A DNA stretch of 64,000 nucleotides from Candidatus Dormiibacterota bacterium (lineage in GTDB: Bacteria; Acidobacteriota; Polarisedimenticolia; Gp22-AA2), in the NCBI GenBank assembly GCA_035635555.1, contig DASQAT010000003.1:1-64000 (forward strand), in the 5' to 3' direction. The position numbers and the translations under genes are program-made. The notes under the pieces are model-generated. The model saw only the letters and a list, made by a program, of their open reading frames with translations, was not told the origin of the DNA and did not search any database. This document shows, in pieces, positions 26,393 to 29,396 of the stretch. The first letter of the stretch is position 1. Each line of letters starts with the position of its first letter.

Positions 26393-27883
26393 TCAGCGAC
26401 CGGCGGTGGCGCCGTCCCAGTGGATGACCTTGGGGACGTACTCGGCCGGAACGTAGTCGGGGGAGTTTTCCCGGGTGTGGCAGGTGACGCAGAAGGTGAC
26501 GTCGACCTTGCCGTACCCCGACTGCATCGCTTCGGGGTGCCGGCTCGAGGGGCCGTGGCAGGACTCGCAGCCCACGTTCTCGAACAGCGGCGTCGCGTGG
26601 GGGTTCACGTAGCCGCCCTTCTGGTTGTAGCCGATGGTGTGACAGGGGAGGCATTTCGGGTTGAAGTCCTGCTTCGCGCGCACCAGCGTCTCGAAGGCGC
26701 GCGCGTGGCCGCTCTTCGCCCACACGGCGAATGCCTGTTCGTGGCAGGTCGCGCAGCGATCGGATCCGGTGTAGGCCGGCTCCTGCGGCACGGCGGCGAC
26801 GGCCGGGGCCGCGAACGGGCTATCCGCCATCGTCTTCTTCTTGTTGTACTCGTTGACGCCCACTTTGACCCGGTCCATGACTTCCGCGAGCCTGGGATCG
26901 TCGGGCCATTCGCGGCTCAGCTGGATGATGGCCCGCTGCGTCGAGGTGACCGATCTCTTCGCATCGAAGAAGAGGCGCACATCGCCCAGGACCTTACCCT
27001 GGTCACCGGCGAACAGCAGTCGCGTGCGGCCGAACTGCGTGTCCTCCGGGAAATCGTCGGAGCGCGTGATCATCCCGGTCTTCCCGGGGGTGGGATCGGC
27101 GCCGACGACGAGATCGATGTTCTTCACTCTCTTCGGCAGCTGCCGCGCCTCTTCGAGGCCGAGGGCGACGAGCGCGACGACGATGTCCGCCTTCTGCTTG
27201 AGCGCCGGCACCTGCTTTTCCGCGGCCGCGTAGGCGTCCACGGTGACGATGCGCCGGCCCGCGGGCCCCTCCTTCTGGAACGCGGGGTCGTTGCGGGTCA
27301 GGCCAATGAAGCCGACGCGCACGTCCTTCACCTTGGCGCCGTCGCGCAGCGGCACCCGGACGACGGTCGTCGCGGACACGACCGGCTCGCCCGTGTCCTG
27401 CCACACGACGTTGGCGGAGACGAACTCGAAGCGGGCCTTCTTCCGGCGCTCGAGGAAGACATCGTAGCCGTGCGACAACTCCCGCTGCGACAGGTTGGAG
27501 ACCTTGTAGCCGAGGACGTTCATCCCGTCGATCAGCGCGTCCGTCTGCATCTTCCCCGGTTCGGTCGGATCGCCGGTGAAGTCGCCGGTGTCGGCCCAGA
27601 GGATCGGCGTAGCCGGGTAGTTCTTGTTGAAGATGTTGCGGTAACCGGCCCTCCGGGCCAGCCCTCCTCGAGGGTTGTGCGGTCAGCCACAGGGTTCGAC
27701 GTAGCCGGCCACCTCGGCGGTGAACACGAAATCCAGATCGGGCGCGGGGCCCGCCGGCAGCGGCGGCGGCAGGGTGATCGGCGACGGCTCGGCCGGGACG
27801 GCCTGCTCCTGGGGCGCGGCCACGGAAGCGGCCACCGTCCCGACCAGGATCAGAAACAAGGCGGCCGGAAGATTCGAGCGCAT
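26393..27883 (-). CDS. Tetrahaem cytochrome with 5'-nucleotidase-like domain, probable selenoprotein
   Basis: One reading frame of 496 codons containing an in-frame TGA at 27683-27685 (residue 67). Before it: signal peptide (ALFLILVGTVAASVAA) and a linker leading to FVFTAEVAGYVEPCG. After it, same frame: PHNPRGGLARRAGYRN and ATPILWADTGDFTGDPTEPG. Family members read EPCGC followed by GGLARR, so the TGA sits exactly on a conserved Cys and probably encodes selenocysteine. A metallophosphatase-like domain follows, then about 130 residues with four haem motifs (CATCH, CLPCH, CESCH, CVTCH). The protein should be a periplasmic redox protein. ATG chosen over TTG one codon earlier. If Sec machinery is absent, the gene would be truncated. 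Confidence 0.8.
27647..27674 (-). promoter_or_regulatory. Candidate bacterial SECIS hairpin(s) after the in-frame TGA
   Basis: Eight bases after the TGA, CCCTC and GAGGG pair around loop GAG (27662-27674); a second hairpin GGCCC-GGA-GGGCC follows (27647-27659). Bacterial SECIS hairpins lie at this distance inside the coding region. Structure by eye only. Confidence 0.4.
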
Positions 27884-29114: not shown

Positions 29115-29396
29115 ATGGAATCCGCGGTCCTCGAAGCCTACGAGAAGCTGATCACGGTCACCATCAACGGCCGGAGCTACGAGGTGCCCGAGAACAACAC
29201 GCTCCTGCGCGTCCTGCAGTTCATGAACCTCGAGCTGGCCTACAGCAAGTACTGCTGGAACGGCGACTGCCGCAACTGCGCCTTCCGCTACGTCTCCCGC
29301 AAGTCGGGCAACGAGGTCGAAGCCCTCGGCTGCCAGATGCGTCTCTTCCAGAACATGGTCATCAAGTGCCTTCCCGAGGGCGTCCAGCTGAATTGA
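29115..29396 (+). CDS. Small 2Fe-2S ferredoxin-like protein
   Basis: 93 residues. KLITVTINGRSYEVPENNTL is the opening beta-grasp strand pair of plant-type 2Fe-2S domains. The cluster ligands read C-x4-C-x2-C (KYCWNGDCRNC) with a fourth Cys in ALGCQ, exactly the expected set. It stands alone, resembling the isolated N-terminal 2Fe-2S domain of larger dehydrogenases, so it probably acts as a soluble electron carrier. Converges with gcvPB. Confidence 0.75.
   Translation: MESAVLEAYEKLITVTINGRSYEVPENNTLLRVLQFMNLELAYSKYCWNGDCRNCAFRYVSRKSGNEVEALGCQMRLFQNMVIKCLPEGVQLN

Follow-up and report, generated by a model that had tools for sequence, protein, structure and literature searches.

A predicted UshA-like multihaem selenoprotein with a Cys-Gly-Sec motif in an acidobacterial genome

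The gene, its internal TGA codon and the selenocysteine machinery

The gene described here lies in the window, that is, the whole stretch of 64,000 nucleotides that was analysed, and belongs to a genome of 4.28 Mb (59 contigs, completeness 99.24). The features of the locus are given below, in each case with the evidence from which they were assigned.

26393 to 27883, minus strand: putative UshA-like multihaem selenoprotein gene, 496 codons plus a terminal TGA, the internal TGA very probably read as selenocysteine (Sec) (translation, NCBIfam match)
27815 to 27883, minus strand: probable signal peptide, residues 1-23 (hydrophobic N-terminal stretch, judged by eye)
26813 to 27739 (approximate), minus strand: nucleotidase/metallophosphatase-like domain, residues 49-357, most metal ligands replaced
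27683 to 27685, minus strand: predicted Sec codon TGA (residue 67), which supplies the U of the CGU motif (translation and homologue comparison)
27643 to 27663, minus strand: core of a predicted bacterial SECIS hairpin, 9-bp stem, apical loop GGA, 28 nt from TGA to loop (covariation across homologues)
26459 to 26773 (approximate), minus strand: four CxxCH haem sites in a Cytochrome_C554-like region, residues 371-475 (Pfam and translation)

The original prediction named this interval and no strand; the interval stands, with the gene on its minus strand, and a plus-strand reading of 26393-27883 was rejected, as the open frame found there is unrelated. Read from 27883 down to 26393, the translation comprises 496 residues with one single internal TGA, at codon 67, and ends at a further TGA that is the ordinary stop of the same frame; the frame continues across 27683-27685, as had been predicted, and the rest of it is intact. 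Residues 60-81 read GYVEPCGUPHNPRGGLARRAGY, with U at the internal TGA, such that the GYVEPCGU motif is followed by PHNPRGGLARRAGY. When five pairwise comparisons were made, the third codon position was the most changed on both flanks of the TGA (9/10 segments, the upstream segment of L064 giving a tie).

The absence of selenocysteine machinery from the genome had been named in advance as counting against a selenoprotein. All four components were found: profile searches identified selA (542 bits), selB (333.7 bits) and selD (365.8 bits), and a tRNA-Sec match of 75.9 bits was called tRNA-SeC with anticodon tca (UCA) by ARAGORN. The selD gene has an in-frame TGA of its own, within SGGU, at what we take to be the position where other SelD selenoproteins carry Sec.

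G000:C46:119634-120566, minus strand: selD (L021) of the same genome, itself a selenoprotein gene with SGGU (translation)

Further tRNA-Sec matches of about 50 bits in this genome probably represent other tRNA species whose variable arm is long; control genomes give matches too. Across the order, selA scored above the cut-off in all 12 genomes and a tRNA-Sec match above 70 bits was found in eight, the remaining four giving 45-55 bits, perhaps because the gene is missing through incomplete assembly.

The TGA codon and the hairpin across homologues

An orthologue (E 1e-60 or better) is present in 10 of the 12 genomes of the order, namely the gene's own genome and nine others. The TGA falls at the identical codon in every one, each main match enclosing exactly one TGA, in agreement with the claim that the stop is not a random one. 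These genomes bear directly on whether the codon is a true stop, either as part of a pseudogene or as a sequencing error, in a gene that formerly contained Cys. Such a stop would account for the formal interruption of the frame, and under the ordinary code the list of open reading frames gives just a downstream ORF of 385 residues from 27550; the intact remainder of the frame and the complete Sec machinery speak against it, and a sequencing error cannot be upheld when ten genomes share the TGA. On the strength of this shared codon the explanation was rejected, and we consider it very improbable. The gene is one that standard annotation would cut off early, which reading the TGA as Sec corrects.

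More widely, a survey of 396 genomes of the phylum returned a match to the NCBIfam model NF041198 (E 1e-40) in 40. Codon state was scored in 30 homologous loci, being those fetched among the 43 matches listed: TGA was found in 23 (including the gene in the window) and Cys in seven, the two states thus alternating at the position that had been proposed to be Cys in the family. The script sought CG followed by U or C and would have scored any other residue as missing, which happened in none of the 30. The gene's own genome also encodes a paralogue with Cys at the Sec position, in ENCGC.

G000:C48:137597-138952, minus strand: Cys paralogue L002, 957-residue frame with NCGC and four CxxCH, without the hairpin

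The relatives L056-L058 come from Acidobacteria metagenome-assembled genomes, which makes an uncultured acidobacterium the most likely source of the window. L057 has its haem sites in a different frame from the nucleotidase-like part, and for that reason this copy may be broken or misassembled (frameshift or assembly error). Its context is the same as that of L068, a second piece in one of the ten genomes (G287, contig C168, with L063), which shows an additional TGA.

Sec insertion in bacteria involves a SECIS hairpin, for which the rules set out in the relevant part of PMC13188914 are a spacing of 16-37 nt, a loop of 3-9 nt and a G within the first two loop positions. The hairpin of the window gene agrees with all three. 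When the minimum-energy fold of 55 nt was scored by these rules, the bSECIS energy rule not serving as a filter, a fitting hairpin was obtained in 24 of 28 distinct Sec sequences versus 2 of 8 distinct Cys sequences. In both of these Cys cases the hairpin is a different one farther downstream, and the SECIS-type hairpin is mostly lost in Cys homologues. In an alignment of 15 of the 28 distinct Sec sequences, chosen for equal TGA-to-stem spacing (a choice that favours structure), 95.6% of stem cells are paired, exceeding all 500 shuffles, and three stem pairs are changed on both sides, indicative of covariation. Left out of this alignment were L037 (spacing 25), L042 and L050 (both 18), and ten sequences from a single distant genus, eight of them with a spacing of 21 and two (L027 and L033) folding differently. 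The corresponding figure for seven of the eight distinct Cys sequences, L036 being excluded for its differing spacing, is 58.7%, which is not above shuffles. Taken alone, the hairpin of the window gene is weak evidence, because the peptide and its GC-rich codons often yield a stem of this kind: nine pairs are reached in 1436 of 20000 synonymous recodings, 236 of 3000 fold at least as stably, and a 71-nt stretch has a folding z of only -1.69. The argument for a putative SECIS element is thus carried by the comparison between species, being strong across homologues and weak for the single gene.

These data also bear on whether the TGA might be decoded as another amino acid, through readthrough or reassignment. 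The open frame would allow this and nothing else points to it; TGA also terminates this very gene, selD has its Sec TGA, the alternative state among homologues is Cys only, and the SECIS-type hairpin is conserved, so that such decoding seems scarcely credible. Selenocysteine insertion, as originally predicted, is very likely given the frame, the machinery, the TGA at the same codon in ten genomes, the alternation of TGA and Cys and the covarying hairpin, and on this combination of sequence evidence we are nearly certain that the internal TGA is read as Sec.

The nucleotidase-like domain, the haem region and a possible redox role

The architecture around the Sec codon is as had been proposed: the N-terminus is hydrophobic and resembles a signal peptide by eye, and a nucleotidase-like domain and four CxxCH sites are both present in the translation and profile matches. 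UshA and 5'-nucleotidases hold a dinuclear metal site through the motifs DxH and GNHE and two later His motifs. In an alignment with solved nucleotidases, TNDLH is replaced in the window protein by TAEVA, GNHE by SQRE, HSG by ALG and GGHSNT by GADPTP, leaving the D of the GD motif as the sole ligand retained; the dinuclear ligand set of UshA/5'-nucleotidase is lacking. The CGU motif comes a short distance C-terminal to what was once the first ligand motif. Structure prediction from a four-row alignment gave a mean pLDDT of 32.7, and this model was set aside.

With its ligand motifs replaced, a working metallophosphatase is unlikely and the protein is probably no hydrolase. A selenoprotein that acts as a phosphatase or nucleotidase, with CGU in a metal-binding or structural part, would be in keeping with the similarity to solved nucleotidases and with the D-x-H that a few homologues (L046, L048 and L052) keep at motif I. 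It is harder to square with the loss of GNHE and both later His motifs from the window protein, and with the finding that GNH occurs nowhere in the listed regions of 44 homologue rows (eight of which repeat an already counted genome). Alternation of Sec and Cys at a position preceded two residues earlier by another Cys is moreover a pattern typical of redox sites. This alternative is considered improbable, and a metal-dependent nucleotidase was judged unlikely after the alignment to solved structures.

The haem region contains CATCH, CLPCH, CESCH and CVTCH and matches Pfam PF13435 (Cytochrome c554-like) with 62.5 bits against a gathering score of 20.8. The name cytochrome given in the original prediction is apt as far as these four sites go, but the TGA itself lies in the UshA-like domain and its motif is also found in homologues that lack haems. 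CxxCH is absent from the protein in 7/30 loci, two with Cys and five with TGA (L037, L038, L040, L042 and L050, out of 23 TGA loci); in these loci no CxxCH was found in frames of at least 150 residues on the read strand within the fetched stretches. It follows that the CGU motif can do without haems in the same protein, and the case for an electron path from Sec to haem is weakened. Elsewhere in the genome, a 730-residue frame (L003/L004; G000:C28:17697-18620, minus strand) with two stretches resembling the haem region is separated from the tRNA-Sec gene by about 10 kb.

The selenoprotein gene adjoins ruvX and mltG in the window, L056 and L058, neighbours that give no pointer to redox function in these three; glycine-cleavage genes lie upstream in L056. 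At 29115-29396 on the plus strand, between maf and glycine-cleavage genes, the window encodes a small, free-standing protein whose domain is of the 2Fe-2S ferredoxin type.

It is proposed that the ribosome would decode the internal TGA as selenocysteine by means of SelB, tRNA-Sec and the hairpin that closely follows the codon, and that the product would be exported, its location being presumably outside the cytoplasm. The mature protein would consist of an UshA/5'-nucleotidase-like domain whose metal site is mostly lost and, C-terminal to it, a cytochrome c554-like domain with four haems. The CGU motif may then act as an extracytoplasmic thiol/selenol redox centre, exchanging electrons with the haems of the same protein or, where a homologue has none, with some other component. 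A redox role for CGU is somewhat favoured, whilst the haems as its direct partner are a possibility that we hold with some doubt. The joint reading, in which an exported selenoprotein has its CGU redox centre outside the cytoplasm and exchanges electrons with haems or some other partner, appears likely. A bolder and decidedly tentative form of it would see a widespread acidobacterial pseudo-nucleotidase whose dead phosphatase site was rebuilt as a Cys-Gly-Sec centre wired to four haems, creating an extracytoplasmic oxidoreductase. That the CGU is kept while most metal ligands are lost offers a testable idea of what UshA-like selenoproteins do.

Relation to known selenoprotein families

The gene very probably belongs to an already catalogued selenoprotein family and is no new kind of thing. 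Its best NCBIfam match is NF041198, 'UshA-like (seleno)protein' (UshA_like_PCGU; E 7.4e-78), with 262.4 bits, obtained with C substituted for U, against a curated cut-off of 275; the score thus lies just below the cut-off, marking the protein as a close homologue, and the PCG(U/C) motif is present. Like that family the protein has the PCGU motif and a nucleotidase-like domain with a haem region after it, the latter aligning to profile positions 346-516 of 519; unlike it, it represents a more divergent acidobacterial branch. UshA-like CxU selenoproteins were listed in 2008 (PMC2398784), and NF041198 appears in a table of a 2026 review (PMC13188914). The COG0737-like domain, CxU motif and Cys homologues are shared with the proteins described there, whereas the four haem sites of the window protein have no mention in the parts of these two papers that deal with them. 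UshA-like selenoprotein family 2 (NF049981) shows weak similarity over residues 51-275 (E 1.2e-11), but with a score of 44.6 bits where the cut-off is 140, and its motif is given in the table of PMC13188914 as CxxU where the window protein has CGU. The multihaem selenoprotein cytochrome ExtKL (NF040886) likewise combines c-type haems and Sec within one protein, but the similarity is limited to the haem region (residues 374-445, 18.2 bits versus 250). With this gene, a selenoprotein family that is known though uncharacterised reaches into an acidobacterial order for which the NCBI model scores slightly under its cut-off.
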